A stretch of 41,021 nt of DNA from Clostridiales bacterium (GTDB taxonomy: Bacteria; Bacillota; Clostridia; Lachnospirales; WRAX01), in assembly GCA_031277225.1 (NCBI GenBank), contig JAITMQ010000163.1, positions 1 through 41,021 on the forward strand, given 5' to 3'. The translations under genes and the position numbers were made by a program. Positions 26,138 through 40,267 of the stretch are shown piece after piece (position 1 is the first letter of the stretch; each line of letters opens with the position of its first letter). The notes beneath the pieces were generated by a model, which worked only from the letters and a program-made list of their open reading frames with translations, ran no database searches and was not told where the DNA came from.

Positions 26138-27112
26138 ATGAAAAGATTAATATTCTTGGTTTTGCTCGTCTTAATTTTGGCCGCCTGCGGCAGGGAAGTT
26201 TACGAACCGCAGGCATATGAGCCGACAACCCCGCCACAAACCGAAGCCGCCCCCGCCACTCCCGAGGGGATTCACGGCCTCTTGTCCTATGTGGAATATG
26301 GCGGCAATCGGGCTTATATTTTCGGCTCTATGCATTTGGGTCGCCCCTATTTTTTCCCGCTGGCCGATGTGGCGGAGGATGCCCTGCGCCGCGCCGATGT
26401 TTTTGCCTTTGAATTCGACATGAACGAAATGGAAACCTTAGAGGGCGCGATTTTAATGCTGCAACATATGTTTTTGCCCGAAAACCAGACTTTGCAGACC
26501 TTTTTACCGGCGGAAGTCTATCAGCATTTTCTGGAAGTTCTTGAAACTTTCCCGCTGGTGAATTACGAAGAAATCACAAGAATGCGCCCCGTGGCCGTTT
26601 CCTCAATGATAACCGCCCTCGAAATCTTCCCGGTTTTGGGCATTTACACGGAATATAGCGTGGACAGCTATGTTCTGGATTTTGCGCGGGCGCGCGGGCG
26701 CGAAATTATCGGCCTAAACCCGCTGTTTCATGAGCTTTCGCTGCTTTTTAACGCCCCGCGAGAGGTGCAAATTGCGGCCATTGCCACCCTGACGGACAGG
26801 GACAGCCTTCTGGCTGAAGCCTATGATTTAGGCCTTGTGCAGGCCTATACAAATCAAGACATGGAAACCCTCTACAAACTTTTGCGCGGGCCCGAACCCA
26901 CAGACGCCTATTCCGCCTATCTTATTGACGTGATTTTAATTCAGCGTTCAATGGAATTCGCCGCGGAAATTGACCGCCTGCTAAGGGAAACCGAAGAGGC
27001 GACGACATTTTTTGTAACCATAGGCATTGGTCATATGCTGGGGGATGATTTCGGAAATGTCCTCGTTGCGCTTGCGGATTTGGGACATTCTGTAACGAAT
27101 GTTGTAAATTAA
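26138..27112 (+). CDS. TraB/GumN family lipoprotein
   Basis: A lipoprotein signal with lipobox LAAC (mature Cys about 17) and a short Pro/Thr linker precede a TraB/GumN domain. Its two hallmark motifs are visible: YIFGSMHLGRP near the start, with FAFEFDMNEME after it, and the closing FVTIGIGHMLGDD. This superfamily includes the metal-dependent Tiki peptidases and ChaN/EreA-like proteins, so a surface metallohydrolase is plausible but unproven. It is transcribed alone from its own promoter; the next gene has a separate one. A more distant member of the same superfamily may be the lipoprotein at 39158-40267. Confidence 0.88.
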   Translation: MKRLIFLVLLVLILAACGREVYEPQAYEPTTPPQTEAAPATPEGIHGLLSYVEYGGNRAYIFGSMHLGRPYFFPLADVAEDALRRADVFAFEFDMNEMETLEGAILMLQHMFLPENQTLQTFLPAEVYQHFLEVLETFPLVNYEEITRMRPVAVSSMITALEIFPVLGIYTEYSVDSYVLDFARARGREIIGLNPLFHELSLLFNAPREVQIAAIATLTDRDSLLAEAYDLGLVQAYTNQDMETLYKLLRGPEPTDAYSAYLIDVILIQRSMEFAAEIDRLLRETEEATTFFVTIGIGHMLGDDFGNVLVALADLGHSVTNVVN

Positions 27113-27149: not shown

Positions 27150-27187
27150 GTTTATATAACCCTATAGTCATGGAAGGGGGGTTAATT

Positions 27188-28156
27188 ATGAAGCGCAAAA
27201 ACAAACCTTTCACCAAGATAGCCGCACTTATTTTGATTTTATTGCTGAATTTGGGGGGCATTGGACTGGCCTCCTATAGGCTGCTTCAGGCGGCTGATAA
27301 TGAACCTAGTCCTCCGGCTTCGCCTGTTGTAAGGGCTGTTGAGCCTCCTACTCCGCCGCCTTCGACTTCGCCGCCTCCGGCTTCGTTTGTCGAATATGAG
27401 GCTGAGGTTGAAGACGACTACGGATATGATTACGAAGAAGATTACGAAATTGCGACAAGAAGGCGATTTTGGATTAGAATCGGAAGGCCATTCCATTCTA
27501 ATAGGGAGCATTTTTGGATAGGTTCGGGCGTTAAGGCGCGGTTTTACAGGCCGGGCGTGTGGCGTTTCAACGAGGGAGGCCTGTGGCAAGAGGCAAGGCT
27601 GGGGCAGCCCGTTCTTAATGCGGGTCTACCGAATGATGAGCTTGGCGGCGGCCATTCCCGGGCGGGTGTCGATTTTGGGCTTGATTTCGGCGCATCCGAA
27701 TATGCCCATGGCGAGCAATCCTCAAATTTAGCGGCAATGAATGGCGACCCCTTAAGGCATGGTAATTATTTGCAGGCCAAGCCTGCGGTGGGGGTTGGTG
27801 AGAATTTTGCGGAAGATTCGGAAGGTGAGCCGTCAAATCTTGCGGAAGATTCGGAAGACGAGCCGTCTAATGCTGAAGATGAGGCGAATGGCGAAGATGG
27901 AGTAGAGGAAGCGAATGGCGAAGATGGAGCTGAGGAAGCGAATGGCGACGATGGAGAGGAAGACAACGAAGATGATTTAGAGCCGGCGCATAGCGCCGCG
28001 CCAAATTCCCCGAATTCCCCGAATTCAGCAAATCCCCGCACAGGCGACGAATTCGCCATTTTGGGGCTGGCCTTCTCAATCCTCGGTTTCCTGCTGTCCT
28101 CCCTAATTTTGGTAATCCTAATCCTAAACAGAAAGGCCGAAAAAAATGAAGCCTAA
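27188..28156 (+). CDS. cell-wall-anchored acidic repeat protein with NPRTG sorting signal
   Basis: The start at 27188 (MKRKNKPFTK) is set by AAGGGGGG 7 nt upstream; the ATG at 27170 has no SD. A signal peptide or anchor (about 8-35) leads to a Pro/Ser-rich linker, an acidic Tyr-rich stretch (DDYGYDYEEDYE), a middle part and then acidic repeats of 11 and 9 residues. The C-terminus has NPRTGDEF, a hydrophobic span and a basic tail (NRKAEKNEA), the layout of a sortase substrate with NPxTG in place of LPxTG. It is probably displayed on the wall. The role is unknown and no sortase is in the window. Confidence 0.75.
   Translation: MKRKNKPFTKIAALILILLLNLGGIGLASYRLLQAADNEPSPPASPVVRAVEPPTPPPSTSPPPASFVEYEAEVEDDYGYDYEEDYEIATRRRFWIRIGRPFHSNREHFWIGSGVKARFYRPGVWRFNEGGLWQEARLGQPVLNAGLPNDELGGGHSRAGVDFGLDFGASEYAHGEQSSNLAAMNGDPLRHGNYLQAKPAVGVGENFAEDSEGEPSNLAEDSEDEPSNAEDEANGEDGVEEANGEDGAEEANGDDGEEDNEDDLEPAHSAAPNSPNSPNSANPRTGDEFAILGLAFSILGFLLSSLILVILILNRKAEKNEA
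27809..27961. repeat. in-frame coding tandem repeats (33 bp x2, 27 bp x3)
   Basis: Units of 33 bp (27809-27841, 27842-27874) encode AEDSE.EPSN, and units of 27 bp (27881-27907, 27908-27934, 27935-27961) encode EANGEDG.E. Both lengths are multiples of 3, so copy-number changes keep the frame. Confidence 0.85.
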
Positions 28157-28163
28157 ACTGCGC

Positions 28164-28387
28164 CGTCATTCCGCTTTCTCCGTCATTCCGCGCTTGACGC
28201 GGAATCCCCCCGCCTTTGCAGGGGATTCCCGCTTTCGCGGGAATGACGTTGAGGGCGGGATGACGTTAGTCGCATACCGTCATTCCGCGCTTGACGCGGA
28301 ATCCCCCCGCCTTCTTCGTCATTCCCGGCTTGACCGGGAATCCCCCCCATTGTGGCAGGGGATTCCCGCTTTCGCGGGAATGACGTC
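28164..28387. repeat. cluster of CGTCATTCC palindromic repeats
   Basis: Several copies in tandem: CGTCATTCCGCGCTTGACGC at 28181 and near 28278, CGTCATTCCCGGCTTGACCG near 28317, and reverse arms GGGGATTCCCGCTTTCGCGG at 28220-28239 and again near 28359. It fills the space between the NPRTG gene and the lipoprotein gene. A stretch of about 85 bp from 28181 is almost identical to 29898-29982. Confidence 0.85.
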
Positions 28388-28418
28388 ATAGTGCTCTTTG
28401 CGGAATAAAGGAGGAGAA

Positions 28419-29051
28419 ATGAGAATTTTGAGGAAAATTAGTGCCGCGCTGCTACTGCTGTTGGTTTTAGCGGCCTGCGGCGGTCGGGGCGGGCCGGATA
28501 TTACGGCAGAAATTTGGCCCGATGGCACAATGTTGGTTAACAATAATGACAAATTTGTCGGCATCACCTTCCCGGCGGGCTGGAATATTGCCGACCTTAG
28601 AAGCGATTTAGAGGCCATTCGCGCCTATAAAAACGGTCTTTCTTTGGTTGTTTATGCGCCGGGAATCGCTACGGATGCGGCGGGCAATTTCATACCGCCT
28701 TATGAGCAATTGGCCAATGAAATCGCCTTTTTATCAGACCGCGGCGAGGGGGCCGTCATCACATTTCAAGAGGAATTTTCCGGCTTTGTGCTGATTGACT
28801 CCGTGCTAATCGCCGAAATTACTTTTGCAGACGGCGCGCAGGCTATGGCGGGGATTGTCTGTCATAACCATGTCATTGGGCTGACGAGTGTCATTCATAT
28901 ATATGGCGAGGCGGAATTTAACCAAGAGGAATTATTTGAAATAATTAAGAGCCATCACATTTTTGCTGTGCTTCTTGCGCACAATTGTTACGCTGGTGGC
29001 GCGGTGCTGACGCACTGGCTCTCACAATCGACAGCGACGAATTCACGCTAA
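28419..29051 (+). CDS. lipoprotein gene fused out of frame to a stalk-domain remnant
   Basis: The start at 28419 (MRILRKISAALL) follows AAGGAGGAG. Signal peptide with lipobox LAAC (mature Cys about 20). The mature part up to about residue 185 (NDKFVGITFPAGWNIADLRS, FADGAQAMAGIVCHNHVIGL) is an unknown soluble domain that looks intact. From about 28985 the DNA matches the stalk domain of the gene at 30028, but in another frame, so the last 25 or so residues (ending THWLSQSTATNSR) are read from the wrong frame. The native C-terminus was probably lost when the two sequences were joined. It may still make a stable protein. Confidence 0.7.
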   Translation: MRILRKISAALLLLLVLAACGGRGGPDITAEIWPDGTMLVNNNDKFVGITFPAGWNIADLRSDLEAIRAYKNGLSLVVYAPGIATDAAGNFIPPYEQLANEIAFLSDRGEGAVITFQEEFSGFVLIDSVLIAEITFADGAQAMAGIVCHNHVIGLTSVIHIYGEAEFNQEELFEIIKSHHIFAVLLAHNCYAGGAVLTHWLSQSTATNSR

Positions 29052-29760
29052 ACGGCGCACAGCGCAGCCTTCTCGAACCCGCGCGCCTTACAAGCGGCGT
29101 TACAATCGACCCCGCTACATATCCCAAAAATTTCAGGGCTTTTGTGCCTGTTTTAGCGGAGCAGATTGTGCAATACAATGAAATGGCGCAATTGCTTTGG
29201 CCGGGAATTCGCAACGATTTGTCCGTTATTTTTCACGACACACACGAGGACATACTCTGGTATTTCGCCCCAAATGGCGATTATAACGAGCTTGCGCACA
29301 CCCACGGGGCTGTTTGAGGCCATATCCATGTTTTCCCATTATGTCATGCACAATTTTGAGCAGATAACATGGCAGATTCTGCCCGACGGCGAGGTTCACA
29401 ATACTTGACCTTTGATGTCAATTTCCGAAAATTTGGAAGCCCTTTCGGGGGATTTGGACGAAATAGAGCGTATGTGGCGGCTTATTTCCTTTGATGATGG
29501 GCTGGCGGAACTTGCGGCGCATAACCTTCCCGAGCCCTATAACCGGGAAATTATGATGCAAGAGGCTTTGGACGCTTTGGGCGACGAATCGGAAGCCGCG
29601 CCGCATTGGGAGCTTGAACCTATCGCGAGCCGGACATGGCAAAATGGATAGTTGGCGAACTTTTAGCAAAGATGTATTATAATGAGCGGCCTTTTATGGA
29701 GGGCGTTGCGCGCGGCGTATGCGCTATTTGGACAATTACCATACCATAGTCTATTGTGCA
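28987..29760 (+). pseudogene. decayed paralogue of the stalk-domain protein at 30028
   Basis: From GTTACGCTGG at 28987 the DNA follows the gene at 30028: RGADALALTIDSDEFTLNG, SLLEPARLTSGVTI, then YNEMAQLLWPGIRND and finally FSHYVMHNFEQITWQI. It has lost the signal peptide and about 60 N-terminal codons, carries one extra G near 28997-29000, lacks about 230 nt between RGADALAL and HYVMH compared with the intact copy, changes frame near 29310 and has a TGA at 29406-29408. Coding-like sequence continues to 29651 (MSISENLEALSGDLDEIERM) and in another frame to about 29750 (MAKWIVGELLAKMYYN). No function is expected. Confidence 0.8.
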
Positions 29761-29870
29761 TAATCTGAGCCAAGAGGAGCGGGACAATATCCTTATTTAT
29801 GGTAAATGCCGAATGACATAACCCGCCAATTTGACGGCTTCGCGCAATATTTGCCGGCCTCTCTATGATG

Positions 29871-29985
29871 CGTCATTCCCGTGAAAGCGCATCATACCGT
29901 CATTCCGCGCTTGACGCGGAATCCCCCCGCCTTTACAGGGGATTCCCGCTTTCGCGGGAATGACGTTGAGGGTGGAATGACGTTA
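29871..29985. repeat. CGTCATTCC palindromic repeats before the intact stalk gene
   Basis: CGTCATTCCCGTGAAAGCGC (from 29871), then an 85-bp block from 29898 nearly identical to the one at 28181 (CGTCATTCCGCGCTTGACGC ... GACGTTGAGGG). The stretch 29760-29870 before it has no gene; it looks like the worn end of the pseudogene. Confidence 0.85.
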
Positions 29986-30027
29986 GCATAGTAGAACAAC
30001 ACTCTTTAAAAATCGAGGAGGAGAATT

Positions 30028-31584
30028 ATGAGATTTTTTAAGAAATTATGCGCCGCGGCACTTTTGCTGGCGGTTTTGGCGGGGTCTGCGATTTTTGCGC
30101 ATGGACAGGCCTTTGACGAATATGGGCGGGTATTCATGCCCGTTCGCGCCACATTCGAGGGGATGGGCTTTGACGTGGGCTGGGATGACGCTACACGCCA
30201 AGTTACGCTGGTGCGCGGTGCTGACGCACTGGCTCTCGCAATCGAAGTCGACGAATTCACCGTAAACGGCGAAATCCGCAGCCTGCTTGAACCCGCGCGC
30301 CTTATAGGCGGCATTACATTTGCCCCAATACGCCCGCTTCTTCACGCCGCAGGCTATACTCTGGGCGAAAATGGCGAAATTCTGCCACATTTCACGCTGG
30401 GAATTCCCGCGCAAGAGCCGCTGCCCGCCTCGCTTGAGGAATTCATCCCGACTTTGGCCATACATATTCAGCGTTACAATCAGCTAACGGCGGATTTTTG
30501 GCCAAATGTCGCAAACAACGTGTTTCTGGCGATTGATAATCGCGACACGGGGCAGCTTTGGATGATTTTGCCCGATGGCGAATTTTTCCTTATGTCGGAC
30601 GCGCAAATTGAAGCCTTAGGCGCACAACGCGCCCAATTCGACGAGGGCTGGCAGGAACTCACCTGGAATGGCCTTCGTGGCCTGTATTACGCCACAACGG
30701 AGCATGAAGTAACAGACCGCGAGAGGATTTATCGCATGGTTCATGTCGGCACATATGAAGGAATTGCCAATTTTACCCACTATGTCATGCATATTTTGGA
30801 ACAGCCAAATTGGGTCATTTCAAGCGAAATTTATGAGCATAATAGCGACCGCTTGGAATATCTTGAAGAAACCGAGGCCCGCGCCGTGCGCTGGCTTATG
30901 CAAAGGCAAATGCTGTTGGCCTTGGCAAATCCCGGGGATGAGCGACTGCTTTTAGACGTGGCGGCGACGATTGGCCGCTGGTTAAGCGAATTTCCACAGG
31001 ATGCGCTAAATGCCCTTGCCATGGACAGAATTGAAGGCACGGCGGAATATTTTGAGATGGTGGCAAGCCTTGCCGCCGCATATCCCGGGCAAATTTACAG
31101 CCGCGCCGATGTCGACCGCGCAATGAGCGAGCTTGCGCATTGGCATTTTGAAAATGCCACGGTGTTTGGGGTTGTAAGCGAATCCTATATGATTGGCGCA
31201 TATGCGGGAATGTTGCTGACGCGCATTGCGCCCGGCTGGCAAAATGCCCTAATCAATGACGGGCGCGCAACCGCCATAACCCTGTTTTACGAGCATTTCA
31301 GCGGAATTGCCCTGCCCGCACCCGTGCAGCTTACAGAGGCGGAAATGCTCTATATCGCCGAAGAGCTTGGCAGGCAAATGTTTAGCATTTTTGAGGCACA
31401 ATTTGAGCTGATTCCCGAATGGATTGCGGATTTGCCCAATTTGGACGCAGAATTGCGCGAGGCCTATCTTGGCATCATTGAGGACTTTTTAGCCGAAATG
31501 GAGGCAAATGTCCTGCCCATGCCTTATAGTCAAATTTTGGAGGATTTTGTGCGTGAAACCCGCGCAATTCTTGCAAATATATAA
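30028..31584 (+). CDS. secreted protein with copper-amine-oxidase-N (stalk) domain
   Basis: Signal peptide about 1-26 (MRFFKKLCAAALLLAVLAGS, cut near AHG). The stalk domain spans about 29-115: GRVFMPVRATFEGMGFDVGW, VTLVRGADALALAIEVDEF and FAPIRPLLHAAGY, the PF07833-type pattern that mediates surface attachment in Clostridia. The remaining 400 residues are helical and unknown, with THYVMHILEQ, DRIEGTAEYFEMVAS and SESYMIGAYAGMLL as the most distinctive stretches. EGTAEY and nearby His could suggest a metal site, but I make no enzymatic claim. The SD is GGAGGAG. The amidase fusion gene follows after 22 nt. The upstream sequence and signal peptide resemble those of the gene at 28419. Confidence 0.8.
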   Translation: MRFFKKLCAAALLLAVLAGSAIFAHGQAFDEYGRVFMPVRATFEGMGFDVGWDDATRQVTLVRGADALALAIEVDEFTVNGEIRSLLEPARLIGGITFAPIRPLLHAAGYTLGENGEILPHFTLGIPAQEPLPASLEEFIPTLAIHIQRYNQLTADFWPNVANNVFLAIDNRDTGQLWMILPDGEFFLMSDAQIEALGAQRAQFDEGWQELTWNGLRGLYYATTEHEVTDRERIYRMVHVGTYEGIANFTHYVMHILEQPNWVISSEIYEHNSDRLEYLEETEARAVRWLMQRQMLLALANPGDERLLLDVAATIGRWLSEFPQDALNALAMDRIEGTAEYFEMVASLAAAYPGQIYSRADVDRAMSELAHWHFENATVFGVVSESYMIGAYAGMLLTRIAPGWQNALINDGRATAITLFYEHFSGIALPAPVQLTEAEMLYIAEELGRQMFSIFEAQFELIPEWIADLPNLDAELREAYLGIIEDFLAEMEANVLPMPYSQILEDFVRETRAILANI

Positions 31585-31606
31585 TAAAAAACCAAAGGAG
31601 AATGAA

Positions 31607-34600
31607 ATGAGAAAATTCAAGAAGATTGCCGTAATTGTCATGATTTTCATTATGACAGCAGCATTTGCCATCACGGCGCGCGCCGCCGTGGACATTGATT
31701 CGGTGTCCATTCCCGAAATTCAAAGCATGGTGAGAGAGGGTCAGCTTACATATGAAGAATTGACCGAAACCTTTCTTGCCAGAATTGCGCGTTATGACGG
31801 GGTTTTACGCTCCATAATCGCGCTTAGCCCCGAAGCCGTCGGACGCGCAATTGCGGCGGACAATGCCGTGCGCGCAAATCCCGACCTTGCACAGGGAATG
31901 TTTGGAATTCCCGTGCTTTTAAAGGACAATATTAATTTTATGGGACTGCCCACAACGGGCGGAGCTTTGGCCTTGGCCGACAATATGGCGGAATTTAACG
32001 CCACCCTTGTCGAAAATCTGCTGGACGCGGGGGCTATAATTTTGGGCAAGGCGAATTTGTCCGAATTGGCGGGCGTTGTAACCCATGTTCCCGCATTTTC
32101 CGCCGTTGGCGGCCTGACAGTTCATCCCTTTGCGCCCTTTGATGCCGAGGCAAGCCCCGCAGGCTCGTCATCCGGCTCGGCTGTGGCTGTGGCGGCCTCG
32201 CTTGCGGCCGTTGCCGTTGGCACGGAAACAACGGGCTCTATTCAAGGCCCTGCCGCCGCCGTTCAAGTTGCGGCGATAAAGCCGACGGTTGGACTGGTTA
32301 GCACGCATGGGGTCATTCCCATTGCCGAAACAAGGGACGCGCCCGGGCCGATGGCGCGGAATCTCACGGATGCGGCCATCTTGCTGAATGCGATGGCGGG
32401 CGGCGATGTTGATTTTACCCCAAATCTTGGGCCGAATGGTCTTCAGGGGCTTCGCATCGGCGTTTTAACCGATGTTTTGGGCGATATTACGGCCTTGTCC
32501 GACGGTGCTTTGGCGAATTTTAATGCCATGCTTGCTGTGCTTGAGCAGGCGGGGGCGACAATTGTAATGGCCGAAGATGGCGGATTTTTGGCATTTGACC
32601 CCGAAATAAGCCTAGCGCATCTCATGACCTCCGCCACAAATATGTATACCGAACTTGTAATATATCTCGATGAATTTTTGGCAAGCTTGCCGCAGGGCTT
32701 CCCCATCCGCTCAACGGCGGAACTTCACGCATTTAACGCCGCAAATCCCGAAGCCATTCCGCATGAGCAAATGGCTCTGGATTTGGCCATAACCATGGAT
32801 TTAACCGACATGGATGCAGTTATGGCGGGCATTTTGGGCGAAAGGGACGCGGTTGCGGCTCTCATTGATGCCATGCTGGCCGAGCATAATCTCGACATGA
32901 TTATAGGCGTGGATTTTAGCCCCTTTGCGGCCGTTGCGGGCTATCCCGTGGTTTCGGTTCCCCTATATCTCAATGAAGATGCCGTCGGGCTTAGCACTAA
33001 TGCGATTTTCATCGGCACGGCATTTTCGGACGCGCGCCTGATTGAGGCGGCCTTTGTGGCGGAACAGGGCACGAATTTCCGCCAAAGCCCGGTTCTTTTT
33101 GGGCCTGTGCGTAGCGTGTTCGAACCGCTGGGCTTTGACGTGGGCTGGGATAATGAAACCCGCCAAGTTACGCTCGTGCGCGGTGCTGACGCACTGGCTT
33201 TAACCATCGATAGCGACATATTCACTCTAAACGGCGCGCCCCACAACCTTCCGCAAGCCCCACAAATCGTTGATGGCACAACAATGGCGCCAATTGAGCC
33301 GCTTTTGTCCGCCGTGGGTCTTGATTCGGGCGAAAATGGCGGCAGAAATGCCCTGTGGGTCGAGGATGTAGAGCAATTTAGGGATGCCGTTATGCATGTC
33401 CATCCAAGATTTTGGGATGATTCCGAAATTTTCATTCCTGCCGATGCGGCGGGCGGGGTCGGCGGCCTCGGAATATGGTATAATCTTGAATTTAATGAAT
33501 TAAGCAGGCGGAACTTTTTGCGCGAAATTGATGAGCTTTTAGAAAATATTCCAAATTTCTCCGATACACAAATTCTAATTGCCCTGCAAAGTGCGGCCGC
33601 AAAGCTTAATGACAATCATTTCCGCTTTTTGCCGTCTTGGGACGCAAGCGAAATTTTCCCTCTTGGACTGTCGCATTTTGGCGGCATGAGCGGCGGGTTT
33701 TATTTAACCCAAGCGTCGGCAGATTTTGCAAATGCGCTCAATCATAGGCTGGCCGCAATAAATGGCGTGGTTATAGGCGAAATAATCGATATGTTCGCAG
33801 AAATTTATCCGACGGAAAATATCTATGATGTCTGGCGTTTCCTGCCCAATCAAATAATCGCCCTGCCTATGCTTGAATATTTGGGGCTTTGGAATGACGG
33901 CGCAATTTTCGCATTTGAGGGCGCAGACGGAAATATTGTCGAAATTGCCTTAACCCAAGCCAATTTGGGCATGGCCGAAATGTACGATTTAAGAAGCGAA
34001 GGCGATTTGCCCGACTTTTTGAATATGAGAGACCACAACAGCTTTAGATTTATCGAGGAATACGGCATTTTGTATATTAGAATCGAGGCCTTTTCGCCCA
34101 ATAGAATTATCGCGCTTATGGCGGGCGACGACCATCCCGCAGGGGTTGAAACCCTGCTTAATACAGCCATTTTAGAGCCCTTAACCCAAATTCCCGAGGG
34201 CGTTACAGACCCAATGGAGCAAGTTATGCTGCTTTTTGGCATTTATGAGGGCGGCGACAGGGAAAATTGGGCGCCCGTGCCGGAAATTGTTTCACTTTTT
34301 GAAAGTGGGGCGGTGCAGGCCGTCATAGTTGACGCAAGGGGCAATCCCGGCGGCGACCAATTGCCGTTTTTGCCGCTTTTGCGCTATATCGCCGAACATA
34401 CGGCCGAGGGGCGTTTCTTCTATCTAACGAATCACCAATCCGGTTCTGCCGCATTTATGACGACGATGATTACGGCCTATATGGGCTTTACCACGGCGGG
34501 AACGCCGCCCGCGCAAAACACGCTTTTCCACGGGCTAAACCAAATTGACCAAGAAAGAAGCGCAATGTTTGCCTTGCCGAATGCGGGAATGTATATCACA

Positions 34601-34804
34601 ATTCCGAACAGATTTATGCATTTGGGCGAGGAATTGAGCGGGCTGCCGAGTGTGGGCATTTCGGCGGAGGCTTTCTTGGAAAGATTCCCAAATTTAGAAT
34701 TTTATGCCTTCACGCCCGATGTTGAAATTGTGCATACAATTGAAGATTGGTTCAATAATACAGACCCTGCAATAAATCATGTTATAAGCATAGTCGGCGA
34801 GTAA
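31607..34804 (+). CDS. secreted amidase / stalk domain / S41-like peptidase fusion
   Basis: The start at 31607 (MRKFKKIAVIVM) follows AAAGGAG; the open frame upstream belongs to the previous gene. Signal peptide to about residue 27. Amidase-signature domain, about 28-490: LLKDNINFMGLPTTGG (catalytic Lys), SPAGSSSGSAVAVA and GTETTGSIQGPAA (catalytic Ser pair). Stalk domain, about 498-578: FEPLGFDVGWDNETRQVTL and RGADALALTID. C-terminal S41-like domain, about 583-1065: AAAKLNDNHFRFLPSW, VIVDARGNPGGDQL and TNHQSGSAAFMTT with a candidate nucleophilic Ser. With 1,065 residues and two hydrolase folds joined by an attachment domain, it is an unusual layout. The substrate is unknown; an extracellular amide or peptide bond is likely. 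A terminator follows. Confidence 0.85.
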   Translation: MRKFKKIAVIVMIFIMTAAFAITARAAVDIDSVSIPEIQSMVREGQLTYEELTETFLARIARYDGVLRSIIALSPEAVGRAIAADNAVRANPDLAQGMFGIPVLLKDNINFMGLPTTGGALALADNMAEFNATLVENLLDAGAIILGKANLSELAGVVTHVPAFSAVGGLTVHPFAPFDAEASPAGSSSGSAVAVAASLAAVAVGTETTGSIQGPAAAVQVAAIKPTVGLVSTHGVIPIAETRDAPGPMARNLTDAAILLNAMAGGDVDFTPNLGPNGLQGLRIGVLTDVLGDITALSDGALANFNAMLAVLEQAGATIVMAEDGGFLAFDPEISLAHLMTSATNMYTELVIYLDEFLASLPQGFPIRSTAELHAFNAANPEAIPHEQMALDLAITMDLTDMDAVMAGILGERDAVAALIDAMLAEHNLDMIIGVDFSPFAAVAGYPVVSVPLYLNEDAVGLSTNAIFIGTAFSDARLIEAAFVAEQGTNFRQSPVLFGPVRSVFEPLGFDVGWDNETRQVTLVRGADALALTIDSDIFTLNGAPHNLPQAPQIVDGTTMAPIEPLLSAVGLDSGENGGRNALWVEDVEQFRDAVMHVHPRFWDDSEIFIPADAAGGVGGLGIWYNLEFNELSRRNFLREIDELLENIPNFSDTQILIALQSAAAKLNDNHFRFLPSWDASEIFPLGLSHFGGMSGGFYLTQASADFANALNHRLAAINGVVIGEIIDMFAEIYPTENIYDVWRFLPNQIIALPMLEYLGLWNDGAIFAFEGADGNIVEIALTQANLGMAEMYDLRSEGDLPDFLNMRDHNSFRFIEEYGILYIRIEAFSPNRIIALMAGDDHPAGVETLLNTAILEPLTQIPEGVTDPMEQVMLLFGIYEGGDRENWAPVPEIVSLFESGAVQAVIVDARGNPGGDQLPFLPLLRYIAEHTAEGRFFYLTNHQSGSAAFMTTMITAYMGFTTAGTPPAQNTLFHGLNQIDQERSAMFALPNAGMYITIPNRFMHLGEELSGLPSVGISAEAFLERFPNLEFYAFTPDVEIVHTIEDWFNNTDPAINHVISIVGE

Positions 34805-34815
34805 GGCCGCTAAAC

Positions 34816-34847
34816 AAAAAGCCCGGAACTATTTCCGGGCTTTTTTT
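34816..34847. terminator. bidirectional intrinsic terminator
   Basis: AAAAAGCCCGGAA (34816-34828) pairs with TTCCGGGCTTTTT (34833-34845) around CTAT, with Ts continuing to 34847. It ends the amidase fusion gene on the plus strand; the A-run gives a T-tract for hutU transcripts from the other side. Confidence 0.92.
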
Positions 34848-34939
34848 GCTTCAATTTTAGGTGTTGCGCAAAAAAGGAATCCGCGAAATTTTCGTGCATT
34901 TCGTGTTTTTCGTGGTTTAGAATCCGCGTGTGAAGTGGC

Positions 34940-34967
34940 GGGGGATTCCCGCTTTCGCGGGAATGGC
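34940..34967. repeat. single arm of the CGTCATTCC repeat family
   Basis: GGGGGATTCCCGCTTTCGCG followed by GGAATGGC, just downstream of the hutU stop. The remaining sequence 34848-34939 shows no gene or clear signal. Confidence 0.7.
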
Positions 34968-34970
34968 GGA

Positions 34971-36947
34971 CTATCCGCTTACAATTTTCTCCAGAAGAGT
35001 TTCATCCGCCACAAACGGCAGGGTTATATGTCCTGCGTGGTTTTGGTTATATTCTTCGGCCGTGGCCATGGCATTGGGGTTTTTGGCCCAGCTTCTGCGG
35101 GCAATTCCTACATTAACATCCCACATCATGGCGGATTTTATAATCTCGTCAATGCGCGCCGAGCCGTCTAAAACAAGGCCAAAGCCGCCGTTTACAGACT
35201 TGCCTATGCCAACGCCGCCGCCATTGTGCAGCGCGATTAAGGACATTCCGCGCGCGGCATTTCCGGCGAAGCTTTGCGTCGCCATATCCGCCGTAATATT
35301 GCTGCCGTCCTTGATATTTGCGGTTTCTCTAAAGGGGCTGTCCGTGCCGCCCGTGTCGTGGTGGTCGCGCCCAAGCATAATCGGCCCAACTTCGCCATTG
35401 CGCACCATTTCGTTGAATTTCAGCGCGATTTTAGTGCGCCCCTCGGCATCTTGATATAAAATCCGCGCCTTTGTGCCGACTACAAGGCGGTTTTTCTCCG
35501 CTTCGTCAATCCAGGCATAATTATCGCGGTCGGCTTCGCGGCGCGTGGGGTCTATGCAGGACTTCGCGGCCGCGTCGGTTTTGCGCAAATCGTCATCGTC
35601 GCCGGAGAGGCAAATCCAGCGGAATGGGCCATAGCCATAGTCAAAAAGCTCCGGCCCCAAAATATCTTCGACATAGGAGGGATAAATAAATCCGTCCTTT
35701 TCGTCGATTCCATTCTTGCTAATACTCGTGATTCCGCAATCGTAGAGGGCCTTAAGGAAGGAATTCCCATAATCAAAGAAATAAGTTCCGCGGGCGACAA
35801 GGGCTTCAATGGCGGCATAATGCTTTTTGAGGGTTTCGTCAACAAGGGCGACAAAATATGCCCTATCTTCGGTCAACAGCCGCGTACGCTCGCTAAAGCT
35901 GATTTGCGGGCAATAGCCGCCGCCGTAAACGTCGTGGCAGGAAGTCTGGTCTGTTAGCAGGTCAATATGAATTTCGGACGCGGCGGCATATTCCAACAAG
36001 TCCACAATATTCCCGGCATAAGCAATGGAGTAAGGTTCGCCTTTGGCTAGGTAGGAAGTCGCAAGTTCAAAGGATTCTTTAGGCGTGCGACAAATCGCCC
36101 GAACCCAGCCCTGGTCATAACGGGTTTGGATTCGACTTTCGTCAACCTCGGCAATTATGCCAACGCCGCCCGCAATTTCAATCGCTTTGGGCTGCGCGCC
36201 GCTCATTCCGCCAAGGCCGCTTGACACAAATAATTTGCCCGCAAGGTCGCTTCCCGCGCCCAGCCCAAGCTTCATGCGCCCTGCGTTTAGCAGGGTGTTA
36301 TAAGTTCCGTGAACAATGCCCTGTGGGCCTATATACATCCAGCCGCCCGCCGTCATTTGCCCATAATTCGCAACGCCCATCTGCGCCGCAATCTCAAAAT
36401 CGTTTAAATTGTCGAACATTCCAATCATTAGGCCATTTGTGATTATGACGCGGGGGGCTTCGGGGCGCGAGGGGAAAAGGCCCAGTGGGTGGCCGCTTTG
36501 CACAACGAGTGTTAAATCTTGGGTTAAATTTTGCAAGTATAACATAATTAGGCGATATTGCAGCCAATTTTGACAGACCGCGCCCGTTTCGCCATAGGTT
36601 ATCAGCTCATAGGGATATAGCGCGATTTCAAAGTCCAAATTATTGTCAATCATAACCTGAAAGGCCTTGCCTTCAAGGCATTTGCCCTCATATTCATCCA
36701 CGGGCCGCCCAAAAAGCCGCCCCGCCGGGCGATAACGATAGGCGTAAATTCGCCCGTATTTCGTGAGTTCCTCCATAAATTCGGGTGCCAGCACCTCATG
36801 CAACTCATTTGGAACATAACGAAGCGCATTTGCAAGTGCCTGCTGTGCCTGCGCGCGGCTTAAGCGAAAGCCGCGGCCGGGCGCGCGGCGAATCCCCTCC
36901 ACAAAAGCGGGATATTCAGGCAATTCACTCGATAATCTAATGTCCAT
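34971..36947 (-). CDS. hutU: urocanate hydratase
   Basis: Second step of histidine degradation: urocanate plus water gives imidazolonepropionate, using tightly bound NAD+. The protein shows GGWMYIGPQGIVHGTYNT, LAGKLFVSSGLGGMSGAQPK (NAD-binding) and DQTSCHDVYGGGYCP. At 658 aa it is longer than the roughly 555-aa Bacillus and Pseudomonas enzymes and closer in size to the long form seen in animals. AGGGAGG precedes the ATG at 36947. It lies 13 nt after the antitoxin gene on the same strand, so the promoter in front of the toxin gene probably also serves hutU. hutH is divergent, beyond the toxin-antitoxin pair. Confidence 0.96.
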   Translation of the reverse strand: MDIRLSSELPEYPAFVEGIRRAPGRGFRLSRAQAQQALANALRYVPNELHEVLAPEFMEELTKYGRIYAYRYRPAGRLFGRPVDEYEGKCLEGKAFQVMIDNNLDFEIALYPYELITYGETGAVCQNWLQYRLIMLYLQNLTQDLTLVVQSGHPLGLFPSRPEAPRVIITNGLMIGMFDNLNDFEIAAQMGVANYGQMTAGGWMYIGPQGIVHGTYNTLLNAGRMKLGLGAGSDLAGKLFVSSGLGGMSGAQPKAIEIAGGVGIIAEVDESRIQTRYDQGWVRAICRTPKESFELATSYLAKGEPYSIAYAGNIVDLLEYAAASEIHIDLLTDQTSCHDVYGGGYCPQISFSERTRLLTEDRAYFVALVDETLKKHYAAIEALVARGTYFFDYGNSFLKALYDCGITSISKNGIDEKDGFIYPSYVEDILGPELFDYGYGPFRWICLSGDDDDLRKTDAAAKSCIDPTRREADRDNYAWIDEAEKNRLVVGTKARILYQDAEGRTKIALKFNEMVRNGEVGPIMLGRDHHDTGGTDSPFRETANIKDGSNITADMATQSFAGNAARGMSLIALHNGGGVGIGKSVNGGFGLVLDGSARIDEIIKSAMMWDVNVGIARRSWAKNPNAMATAEEYNQNHAGHITLPFVADETLLEKIVSG

Positions 36948-36960
36948 AATAATCCTCCCT

Positions 36961-37182
36961 TTAATCTAAACTATCCCAGTCTATTTCATTATGACAATAA
37001 TATTCGCCCTTTGCAAATTGCTCACGAGCAAGACGCAATTCCTCCGCCTCTTTCATGGTAAGTTTTGTGAAATCCGGATCCCACGCCACCACTAACTTTT
37101 TTACAATTTGCCCGGCAAAATGTTGCTCCTCTTCCGGCAGCATTTCAAGCATGTCAACAATTCCTCTTACAGTAGCCGTCAT
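36961..37182 (-). CDS. antitoxin of a type II toxin-antitoxin pair
   Basis: A 73-aa protein starting MTATVRGIVDMLEMLPEEEQ, with GGAGGG just upstream; the frame is open further up but has no second SD. The layout (helical N-terminus, VAWDPDFTKLTMKEAEELRL, acidic end NEIDWDSLD) matches small antitoxins paired with RelE/ParE toxins in Clostridia. It would bind and block the toxin and probably repress the shared promoter. It follows the toxin gene by 13 nt and precedes hutU by 13 nt. Confidence 0.8.
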   Translation of the reverse strand: MTATVRGIVDMLEMLPEEEQHFAGQIVKKLVVAWDPDFTKLTMKEAEELRLAREQFAKGEYYCHNEIDWDSLD

Positions 37183-37195
37183 GAAATTCCCTCCT

Positions 37196-37453
37196 TTACT
37201 TATAGACATCGCCGCGACTGTCAATATTATTAATCATTAAAATCCTTAGATTTCCGTTCGCAAGATACTCATAAACTACCCTGTATTTACCAACAACCAA
37301 ACGAAGTTCATTATTTGAGCCTTTCAACGGCTTTATATCACCCTTTGGAGGGGCTTGAGTCAGTCCGTTGATTCCATTCAAAATTCTCCTTCGTGTTTTC
37401 TTGTCATATCGCTTCAATCTCTTGTATGCTTCTTTTGAATATCTAATCTCCAT
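37196..37453 (-). CDS. RelE/ParE-family toxin
   Basis: An 85-aa basic protein with the RelE fold pattern: MEIRYSKEAYKRLKRYDKKT, PPKGDIKPLKGSNNELRLVV and GKYRVVYEYLANGNLRILMI. RelE-like toxins cut mRNA on the ribosome, while ParE-like ones poison gyrase; I cannot tell which applies here. AAGGAG precedes the ATG at 37453 and a perfect promoter is upstream. The toxin gene comes first, the reverse of the usual antitoxin-first order but like higBA. Confidence 0.88.
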   Translation of the reverse strand: MEIRYSKEAYKRLKRYDKKTRRRILNGINGLTQAPPKGDIKPLKGSNNELRLVVGKYRVVYEYLANGNLRILMINNIDSRGDVYK

Positions 37454-37487
37454 CCCGCTTCTCCTTTGTTGGAATCTGGTTAAGAAA

Positions 37488-37516
37488 ATTATATAATTTC
37501 ACAAAGCTTTTGTCAA
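37488..37516 (-). promoter_or_regulatory. perfect-consensus promoter of the toxin-antitoxin-hutU unit
   Basis: TTGACA (37516-37511), a 17-bp spacer and TATAAT (37493-37488). The AT palindrome around the -10 (AATTATATAATT) could be an operator for the toxin-antitoxin complex. Confidence 0.85.
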
Positions 37517-37524
37517 GCCAGAGC

Positions 37525-37553
37525 TTGCGCAAAAGTGAATAATGTAATATAAT
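37525..37553 (+). promoter_or_regulatory. sigma-A promoter of hutH
   Basis: TTGCGC (37525-37530), a 17-bp spacer and TATAAT (37548-37553); the -10 is perfect and the -35 weak. It is divergent from, and only 8 bp away from, the toxin promoter, so a regulator bound here could affect both. Confidence 0.65.
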
Positions 37554-37571
37554 TAGGGCGGAGGTGTTGAA

Positions 37572-39137
37572 ATGATTAAAATTTCTGATAAAGACTTAAC
37601 GATTGACGAGCTTGTGCAGGTGGCGCGCGGCTATGTGCCGGTCATGCTTTGCGACGACATTAAAGAGGGCATTTTGCGCTCGCGCGAAGTGGTGGATTCC
37701 ATGGTGAATGAGCGGCAGGTGGTTTATGGCATTACCACGGGCTTTGGCAGCCTTGCCAAAACCGTTATAGAACCCGAGGCCGTGCAGGAATTACAGCGCA
37801 ATTTGATTGTCAGCCATGCCTGCGGCGTGGGCGACGCTCTGCCCGAAGATGTTGTTCGCGCCATGATTCTACTCCGCGCAAAATCGCTTGCTTGGGGACA
37901 TTCCGGCGTGCGCCTGGTTTTAATCGAGCGTCTGCTGGACTTGCTTAACAAGCGCGTAACCCCAATTGTGCCCGAAAAAGGCTCTCTTGGCGCAAGTGGC
38001 GACCTTTGCCCGCTGTCGCATATGGTTTTGCCGCTGATTGGCGAAGGTGAGGCCATTTACGAGGGCGAACGCCTTAACGGGGCTTTGGCAATGCGCCTTG
38101 CGGGCATTGAAACAATCACGCTTGAGGCCAAAGAGGGCCTTGCGCTGAATAATGGCACACAATGCATGACGGCAGTCGGCGCGCTGGCGGTCTATGACGC
38201 GTGGAATTTGCTTGAAACAGCGGAAAAAGCCGCCGCGTTGACGCTGGAGGCTTTAAATGGGCGCGTTGATGCCCTTGATGAGCGTATTCATGCGCTTCGC
38301 CGTCATTCGGGCCAGCGTATAAGCGCCGCGCTTATTTTGGAATATACCAAAGGTTCAACTTTTATTAATAATTCAAAACCCAGTCGCGACGGGGATTTTA
38401 GGATTCAAGACGCCTATGCCCTGCGCTGTGTTCCGCAGGTTCATGGCGCAAGCCGCGACAGCCTTACGCATATCACGCAAATTGTTGAGCAGGAAATGAA
38501 TTCTGTTACCGACAATCCGCTTATCGTCGGCAATGAAGCCATTTCCGGCGGCAATTTCCACGGCCAGCCCGTGGCTTTGGTTATGGACTTTTTGGGCATT
38601 GCCCTGGCAGAACTTGCCAATATTTCCGAACGCCGCCTTGAACGCCTGCTTAACGACAATCTCTCAAATGGTATGCCGTCGTATTTGATTGCCGAAAAGG
38701 AGAAAAAGGGCTTACATTCGGGCTTTATGATAGTGCAATATACGGCGGCTTCGCTGGTTTCGGAGAATAAGGTGCTGGCGCATCCGGCCTGTGTGGACTC
38801 AATTCCCAGCTCGAATAGCCAAGAAGACCATGTTTCCATGGGCACAATTGCCGCGCGCAAGGCCGCGCAAATTCTTGAGAATGTAATGCAGGTGATTGCG
38901 ATGGAATTGTTGGTTGCGGCGCAGGCCGTGGATTTGCGGCGCAAAAGGGGCGAATGGTCCAATCCCGAGTCGGAAAAGCCGAAATGGTTTGGGCCGGAAA
39001 GGCCTACCGACCTGGGGCAGACCACCGAAAAAGTCTATAATAAAATCCGCACAAAAGTCGCGCCGCTGCAGAAGGACAGAATCCTTGCGCCGGATATTGC
39101 GGCTGTGGCGGAATTAATTCGCGCTGAAGTGTTTTAA
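37572..39137 (+). CDS. hutH: histidine ammonia-lyase
   Basis: First step of histidine degradation: removes ammonia from L-histidine to give urocanate, the substrate of the hutU product. VVYGITTGFGSLAKTVI and GSLGASGDLCPLSHM are diagnostic; the Ala-Ser-Gly in the latter cyclises to the MIO electrophile. NNGTQCMTAV and SSNSQEDHVSMG are also family blocks. The length of 521 aa is normal. GGAGGTG lies 5 nt before the ATG. The next gene, a lipoprotein, starts 20 nt downstream and may be co-transcribed. Confidence 0.97.
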   Translation: MIKISDKDLTIDELVQVARGYVPVMLCDDIKEGILRSREVVDSMVNERQVVYGITTGFGSLAKTVIEPEAVQELQRNLIVSHACGVGDALPEDVVRAMILLRAKSLAWGHSGVRLVLIERLLDLLNKRVTPIVPEKGSLGASGDLCPLSHMVLPLIGEGEAIYEGERLNGALAMRLAGIETITLEAKEGLALNNGTQCMTAVGALAVYDAWNLLETAEKAAALTLEALNGRVDALDERIHALRRHSGQRISAALILEYTKGSTFINNSKPSRDGDFRIQDAYALRCVPQVHGASRDSLTHITQIVEQEMNSVTDNPLIVGNEAISGGNFHGQPVALVMDFLGIALAELANISERRLERLLNDNLSNGMPSYLIAEKEKKGLHSGFMIVQYTAASLVSENKVLAHPACVDSIPSSNSQEDHVSMGTIAARKAAQILENVMQVIAMELLVAAQAVDLRRKRGEWSNPESEKPKWFGPERPTDLGQTTEKVYNKIRTKVAPLQKDRILAPDIAAVAELIRAEVF

Positions 39138-39157: not shown

Positions 39158-40267
39158 ATGAGATTTTTGCGTATTTTGCTCGCCGCCATGCTTTTGCTGC
39201 TCATGGCGGCTTGCAACAGGGCGATTGAGGCGGATATTCCGGACATTGTTTATCACTCCGAGCCTGAACTTCCCGCACAACCCTCCTCCGGCCAAATCCA
39301 TTTGTACGGTGAATGGCACGCCCTGGAGCATATGATAGACAAGCACTTTGAGTTATGGTATTATTACTACAATACTCACGGCATGAGGCATCTAATTTTG
39401 GAAACGTCGTTTTCTGCGGCGGAATTCCTTAATATATGGATGCATGAGGATGACGACGATATTTTAGACGCGCTTTTTCGGGACAGACGCGGCACGGCAT
39501 CGGACACGGTCTATCAGCGGGAGTTTTATCGCAGAGTTAAGCGGGAATTGCCCGAAACCATATTCCACGGCGTGGATGTGGGGCATCAATACGCCTCTAC
39601 AGGGCGGCGATTTTTGCGCCATTTGCGCGCAAACGACCTTGAAGGCAGCGAGATTTACCGCCTTGCAACGGAAAATATCGCGCAGGGGCGGGAATTTTAC
39701 GGCGTGCAAAGAAGCGACCATAATTGGCGCACGGTTGTAATGGCGAATAATTTCATTCGTGTGTTTGACGGCCTTGGCGATGAGAGCGTTATGGGGCAAT
39801 TTGGGGGCTTTCATGTGAATACGCCGGAAAGCAGGATAAACCCCATGACAACGCGCAATATGATTGCCGTGCTGAAAGAGCGTTATGGCGAAAATGTGCA
39901 TACGACCTGTCTTGTTGAGTATTTCTTGCGGCAAGTTGCCGGAACACCGGATGTTGTTATGGTTGGCGGCACAGAATTTAATGCGACATTTTATGGCGAG
40001 CAGAGCCTAAGCGCTTTCCATAATATCCCATATGTGATGCGCGAATTTTGGCTTCTGACGGACGAAAATGCCTATGATATATTCAAAGACCATCCCACAA
40101 CCGGGAATGTGCTGCCTTTTCACAACTTTCCCATGCGGGTAGAGGCCGGGCAAGTGGCGGTTATCCGCTATATCCTCCCCGACGACACATATCGCATGGA
40201 ATATCTGCGCTCCGATGGCGAAATATGGTATTATTGGGAAATTTTTAATACCTTCGTCATGCCCTAG
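39158..40267 (+). CDS. lipoprotein, ChaN/EreA/TraB-like superfamily
   Basis: Lipoprotein signal with lipobox MAAC (mature Cys about 19). The mature domain opens with IHLYGEWHALEHMIDKHFEL and MRHLILETSFSAAEF, and has GQFGGFHVNTP later. The GExH plus later GxH pattern is that of the ChaN/erythromycin-esterase/TraB group, whose members bind haem or metal or act as hydrolases. The middle part is rich in His (VDVGHQYAS, RSDHNWRT). GGAGG precedes the ATG. It is 20 nt after hutH, but nothing in the sequence links it to histidine use. The family assignment is moderate and the activity unknown. Confidence 0.7.
   Translation: MRFLRILLAAMLLLLMAACNRAIEADIPDIVYHSEPELPAQPSSGQIHLYGEWHALEHMIDKHFELWYYYYNTHGMRHLILETSFSAAEFLNIWMHEDDDDILDALFRDRRGTASDTVYQREFYRRVKRELPETIFHGVDVGHQYASTGRRFLRHLRANDLEGSEIYRLATENIAQGREFYGVQRSDHNWRTVVMANNFIRVFDGLGDESVMGQFGGFHVNTPESRINPMTTRNMIAVLKERYGENVHTTCLVEYFLRQVAGTPDVVMVGGTEFNATFYGEQSLSAFHNIPYVMREFWLLTDENAYDIFKDHPTTGNVLPFHNFPMRVEAGQVAVIRYILPDDTYRMEYLRSDGEIWYYWEIFNTFVMP

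Follow-up and report, generated by a model that had tools for sequence, protein, structure and literature searches.

The window, by which we mean the whole stretch of 41,021 nucleotides analysed here, carries at 31607-34804 on its plus strand a single open frame of 1065 codons without interruption. Domain search and structure prediction, which an earlier note on this DNA had recommended, found in its product an amidase domain, a stalk domain and an S41-clan, CPAF-like fold. In Pfam, these regions were matched by PF01425 (E 2e-60), by PF07833 (E 3e-14) and, below the cut-off, by PF03572 (E 0.023). The N-terminus resembles a signal peptide and, in a call made by eye, reads MRKFKKIAVIVMIFIMTAAFAITARA followed by A. 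A gap of 22 nt separates the start of this frame from the stop of an upstream gene (30028-31584), and a terminator hairpin, which was seen by RNA folding and overlooked by a promoter/terminator scan, follows at 34816-34845. Because of the 22-nt spacing and the strong terminator, the pair has the appearance of a single transcription unit. The features are as follows.

28987..29510, plus strand: degenerate remnant of part of the upstream stalk/zincin-like gene, with frameshifts, run into the lipoprotein ORF 28398-29051 (matched piecewise by tblastn across several frames, best E 2e-19; direct repeats D2 and D6)
30028..31584, plus strand: upstream gene, 518 aa, with a signal-peptide-like N-terminus, a PF07833 stalk (30082-30369; Pfam E 6e-15) and a zincin-like domain (about 30391-31413; family alignment)
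30778..30792, plus strand: HYVMH at the HExxH position (family alignments; Tyr stands in place of Glu, while the two His and the EGTA further downstream, with E336, are retained)
31594..31600, plus strand: ribosome-binding site AAAGGAG, 5' of the fusion ORF (sequence)
31607..34804, plus strand: fusion ORF, 1065 aa, with a signal-peptide-like N-terminus, an amidase-signature (AS) domain, a stalk and an S41/CPAF-like domain
31607..31684, plus strand: signal-peptide-like segment, residues 1-26, ending in ARA before A (sequence, by eye)
31694..33082, plus strand: amidase-signature domain, residues 30-492 (PF01425 E 2e-60; peptide amidase 5ac3 E 1e-62, near full-length alignment)
33098..33328, plus strand: short PF07833 (Cu_amine_oxidN1) stalk between the hydrolases, residues 498-574 (Pfam; model match to 1oac)
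33335..34804, plus strand: S41-clan, CPAF-like domain, residues 577-1065 (family alignments; best Foldseek match CPAF 3dor)
34816..34845, plus strand: intrinsic terminator hairpin closing the two-gene unit (13 bp; RNA fold -20.1 kcal/mol, z -4.3)

Other genes and elements surround this unit. Two genes for histidine degradation, hutU on the minus strand and hutH on the plus strand, adjoin the fusion locus at 34971-39137, and 39158-40267 encodes a 369-aa lipoprotein-like protein that had no Pfam match. On the other side, a TraB/GumN-family lipoprotein-like protein is encoded at 26138-27112, and 27170-28156 encodes a protein rich in Glu, with repeats of 27 nt and 33 nt. At its end, this protein has NPRTGDE, then a hydrophobic segment and a charged tail, and in these respects it resembles the LPXTG-type substrates of sortases. 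REP-like palindromic elements (GTCATTCCCGC...GCGGGAATGACG) stand between genes at 28180-28406, 29897-29986 and 34935-34968, and also occur in C63, another contig of the source genome.

The N-terminal half of the fusion protein matched PF01425 at 205.6 bits against a gathering cut-off of 27, covering positions 1-444 of the 445 in the profile. In the alignment to peptide amidase, the Ser-cisSer-Lys triad is kept as S211, cis-S187 and K106. The amidase half is a complete AS amidase of the peptide-amidase-like subfamily, and by sequence the peptide amidase PAM is its closest solved relative. Substrates differ widely among AS amidases.

The C-terminal half is a 490-aa domain with H671, S947 and RGNPGG at 911-916. 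Its PF03572 score of 14.7-16.8 bits does not reach the gathering cut-off of 24, which some of its homologues do reach, and 14 of the 17 homologues matched PF03572 at E <= 0.5 (best 5e-7). These homologues, at 23-42% identity, make up a coherent family with little or no variation at the His of DxHF (H671), at RxNxGG and at the Ser of SxSA (S947); S947 was invariant in 17 of 17 and the His wherever it was aligned. Against the PDB, the family profile gave weak matches to Prc, IRBP, CtpB and CPAF, and the AlphaFold model of the fusion (pLDDT 80) had CPAF as its best Foldseek match (E 5e-10), followed by tricorn and CtpA/CtpB. The S41 assignment is therefore supported by the PF03572 matches of the homologues, by the PDB profile and by the CPAF fold.

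The earlier note had described this half as an S41-like peptidase. The fold and the clan stand, but the domain lacks the Ser-Lys dyad of the Ctp type, and PF03572 remains below its cut-off. The Ctp-type catalytic lysine was absent from the GKG position throughout the family alignment. In the same alignment, the acid matching Glu558 of CPAF, as mapped by alignment, is variable, and the usual GEP next to the S41 active site is GTP in the fusion protein. Since the Ctp lysine is missing and the Glu558 acid is unconserved, the half would be labelled S41-clan and CPAF-like rather than a confirmed S41 peptidase; in sequence and model, it resembles CPAF and tricorn (Ser-His) and not the Ser-Lys type of Ctp. 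Two unrelated hydrolase folds are thus present in one protein, as had been claimed, with K106/S187/S211 and H671/S947 visible. Degeneration of both active sites among homologues, which would have spoken against this claim, was not found, and the motifs of both hydrolases are conserved.

Between the two hydrolases, PF07833 was recognised at 53.5 bits against a gathering cut-off of 24.2 (E 3e-14). PF07833 corresponds to the D1 'stalk' of E. coli copper amine oxidase (PMC3382800). The fusion stalk has no counterpart of the first 20 profile positions, and the same is seen in several relatives of the group; its 'truncated' form was considered as a mark of the fusion point and dropped, as relatives use the identical short form. 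The source genome, a metagenome-assembled genome (MAG) of 177 contigs, holds 33 stalk domains, and the stalk behaves there as a promiscuous module, placed N- or C-terminally in many exported proteins, with partners that include Amidase_3 with AMIN, S11, CAP, GH18, S41 and rhodanese. The idea that the stalk attaches the protein to the surface was not borne out, because we found no demonstrated anchoring role for this promiscuous module. It is at least a linker between the hydrolases.

A 23-nt dispersed repeat, TGCGCGGTGCTGACGCACTGGCT, was observed in eight copies in the source genome within the limits used (window 30212, 33177 and 28998; C63:63, C106:27664, C136:13563, C143:1392 and C52:16175), and the reversed control and 15 relatives of the family had no copy. 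Copies sit in stalk domains, with the reading RGADALA, and also in an aroB-like gene and antisense to another ORF. Those in these last two places ruled the motif out as a conserved coding sequence of the stalk and indicate a dispersed repeat. It could form a hairpin, and variants with paired changes occur.

The upstream protein belongs to a zincin-like family whose members align at 25-36% identity. Six relatives have HEAFH, HELFH or HEGFH at the HExxH position and one has HGAGH, with EGTA conserved, and the upstream protein departs from HExxH in having HYVMH. Its C-terminal domain gave no PDB match below E 0.001 and no convincing Pfam match, and its model reached a pLDDT of 69; since libraries and fold give no support, the label 'zincin' is taken from the motifs, which suggest such a domain. 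The source genome also encodes a paralogue, a lipoprotein with an intact HEAFH (L155:10683-11978, in C63). Members without the HExxH glutamate, namely HYVMH in the window and HGAGH in G082 (L157:4483-6930), therefore exist beside this intact HEAFH form, and they are possibly pseudo-enzymes. The decayed copy in the window also reads HYVMH, and a lipoprotein ORF (28398-29051) runs out of frame into it at about 28987 (region 28398-29800).

Homologues of the S41-like half were found in 9 of the 392 genomes of the order, and outside the window their open frames are at most 770 aa long. Several relatives (G086, G197, G212 and G031) have a signal-stalk-S41 layout and others are stand-alone; a C-terminal stalk was seen in one homologue and an SLH domain in another. 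The amidase homologues of the family are stand-alone proteins with frames of 387-462 aa, and in the flanks examined none was linked to an S41-like gene. Among 391 genomes drawn from the class, a sample that overlaps the 392 of the order, only the window's own copy turned up. No second fused copy was found in the order (392 genomes), the class sample (391), viral contigs or plasmids, and the literature search returned nothing relevant on stalk-amidase-S41 proteins. This agrees with the earlier statement that no characterised protein of such a layout is known, as none turned up in any collection searched, and the fused form is a single example from a MAG. Since the halves occur apart in relatives and no second fusion was seen, we regard the gene as a fusion confined to one lineage, made onto a stalk-S41 gene that already existed. 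The protein is a real, rare gene fusion assembled from known part types.

Of the 392 genomes of the order, 6 have the zincin-like family, and in 5 of these 6 the S41-like family is present as well (hypergeometric 1e-8, with kinship ignored). A zincin-like gene adjoins an S41-like gene in G086, and both lie in one island in G031. The proposed pairing of the fusion with its upstream gene accordingly finds parallels elsewhere, but the partner is more than the stalk protein it had been taken for. The island in G031 (L140:6165-14075, G031:C152) consists of extracellular-type peptidase genes in the order zincin-like, zincin-like, M28-stalk, stalk-S41 and S41, and both zincin-like genes are lipoprotein-like. 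In this island, the M28-stalk gene and the stalk-S41 gene overlap over 14 nt, and the stalk of the former has 35% identity to the fusion stalk. This overlap is a plausible arrangement of the pre-fusion type. If two neighbouring stalks of this kind recombined, the result would be hydrolase-stalk-S41, which is the layout of the fusion ORF. The many exported partners of the stalk in the source genome, and the lipoprotein ORF that runs into a stalk/zincin remnant in the window, fit such a route. Judging from this gene arrangement, a complete peptide-amidase-like AS amidase would have been joined onto a pre-existing stalk-S41/CPAF-like gene with the stalk at the seam, probably when stalk-coding sequences recombined with each other.

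Considering the evidence as a whole, we favour a lineage-restricted fusion whose product is exported and whose two tethered, active hydrolases act on extracytoplasmic peptides, with a probability of roughly 0.55. Export would follow from the N-terminus and from the usual company of the stalk, and the peptides that both hydrolases act on would lie beyond the membrane. The amidase domain would take amides off peptide termini or side chains, and the CPAF-like domain would cut the peptide by Ser-His catalysis. Cooperation of the two on amidated peptides is possible. Several observations weigh against this reading, namely the wide differences in substrate among AS amidases, the variable Glu558 acid, the change of GEP to GTP, the lost HExxH glutamate of the partner, the G+C shift between the halves and the single fused example. 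A more specific version is improbable: the PAM-like domain would strip a C-terminal amide, the S41/CPAF-like domain would degrade the peptide from the freed C-terminus, and the HYVMH partner would be a substrate-binding pseudo-enzyme.

An assembly error joining separate genes had been named earlier as something that would refute the interpretation; here the assembler would have joined two genes at stalk repeats. The MAG with its 177 contigs and 33 stalk domains could favour such an event, and the G+C of the halves (0.54 vs 0.475) fits a recent join and is also compatible with a fault in assembly. However, in the window, the genome stretches compared and a genome-wide BLAST, no exact repeat exceeded 15 nt near the junction or 24 nt inside the stalk, so the junction has no repeats able to explain a misassembly. 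In addition, the reading frame is preserved across the join, and the S41-like half adjoins a zincin-like gene as in G086 and G031. We consider a chimera very unlikely. On the other hand, a genuine fusion could still be a bystander of chance recombination, with halves that work independently on different substrates or with one of them disused. The fusion is unique to one genome, GTP stands beside the S41 active site, and the join of the lipoprotein ORF with the decayed stalk/zincin copy at about 28987 looks like a second accident at the same locus. Nevertheless, neither domain has lost any of its invariant residues and the 1065-codon frame is uninterrupted, and we regard such a chance product as unlikely, though as the strongest competitor of the favoured reading.

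The substrate could also lie in the cell envelope, where the protein would trim a wall peptide, an amidated cross-link, an S-layer protein or a lipoprotein C-terminus instead of serving peptide feeding. Ctp-type S41 proteases process envelope proteins, the stalk partners in the source genome include wall enzymes (Amidase_3 with AMIN, and the S11 carboxypeptidase), and one S41-like homologue carries an SLH domain. However, we know of no AS amidases that are wall hydrolases, and GH18, CAP and rhodanese are also among the stalk partners, so a bias towards the wall is not apparent. We therefore find envelope processing rather doubtful, and the exported peptide-degrading fusion remains our preferred reading. 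If it is true, a bifunctional exported amidase-protease represents a new enzyme layout and offers a simple test of whether tethering aids the breakdown of amidated peptides. The locus also presents a possible mode by which exported enzymes recombine in this group, with stalk-coding segments as joints, and two undescribed families that travel together, the CPAF-like S41 family and the zincin-like family with catalytically altered members.

In comparison with known systems, the amidase domain is closest to the peptide amidase PAM of Stenotrophomonas maltophilia (1M21/1M22, 5AC3), which aligns to fusion residues 34-492 (E about 1e-62 to 1e-60) and has the same Ser-cisSer-Lys triad. It falls in the NCBIfam neighbourhood of PRK08137/PRK06828/PRK06707, at about half of those cut-off scores, and differs from PAM in being joined to a stalk and an S41-like domain. 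The stalk model matches D1 of E. coli copper amine oxidase (1oac) with an rmsd of 2.6 over 80 columns, whereas in the fusion the stalk is a short linker between two hydrolases with no amine oxidase attached. The S41-like domain has the DxRxNxGG and SxSA motifs in common with the tail-specific proteases Ctp/Prc, and the profile of its family hits Prc and CtpB, but it has no catalytic lysine and stays below the Pfam and NCBIfam cut-offs. Its best fold match is chlamydial CPAF (3DOR/3DPM), yet at 9% identity and a TM of 0.42, and the NCBIfam model of chlamydial CPAF was reached, weakly, by one family member only. CPAF uses a Ser-His-Glu triad of His105, Ser499 and Glu558 (PMC8787135). The S41-like family has a conserved His and Ser like His105 and Ser499 of CPAF, but the equivalent of Glu558 is not conserved in it.
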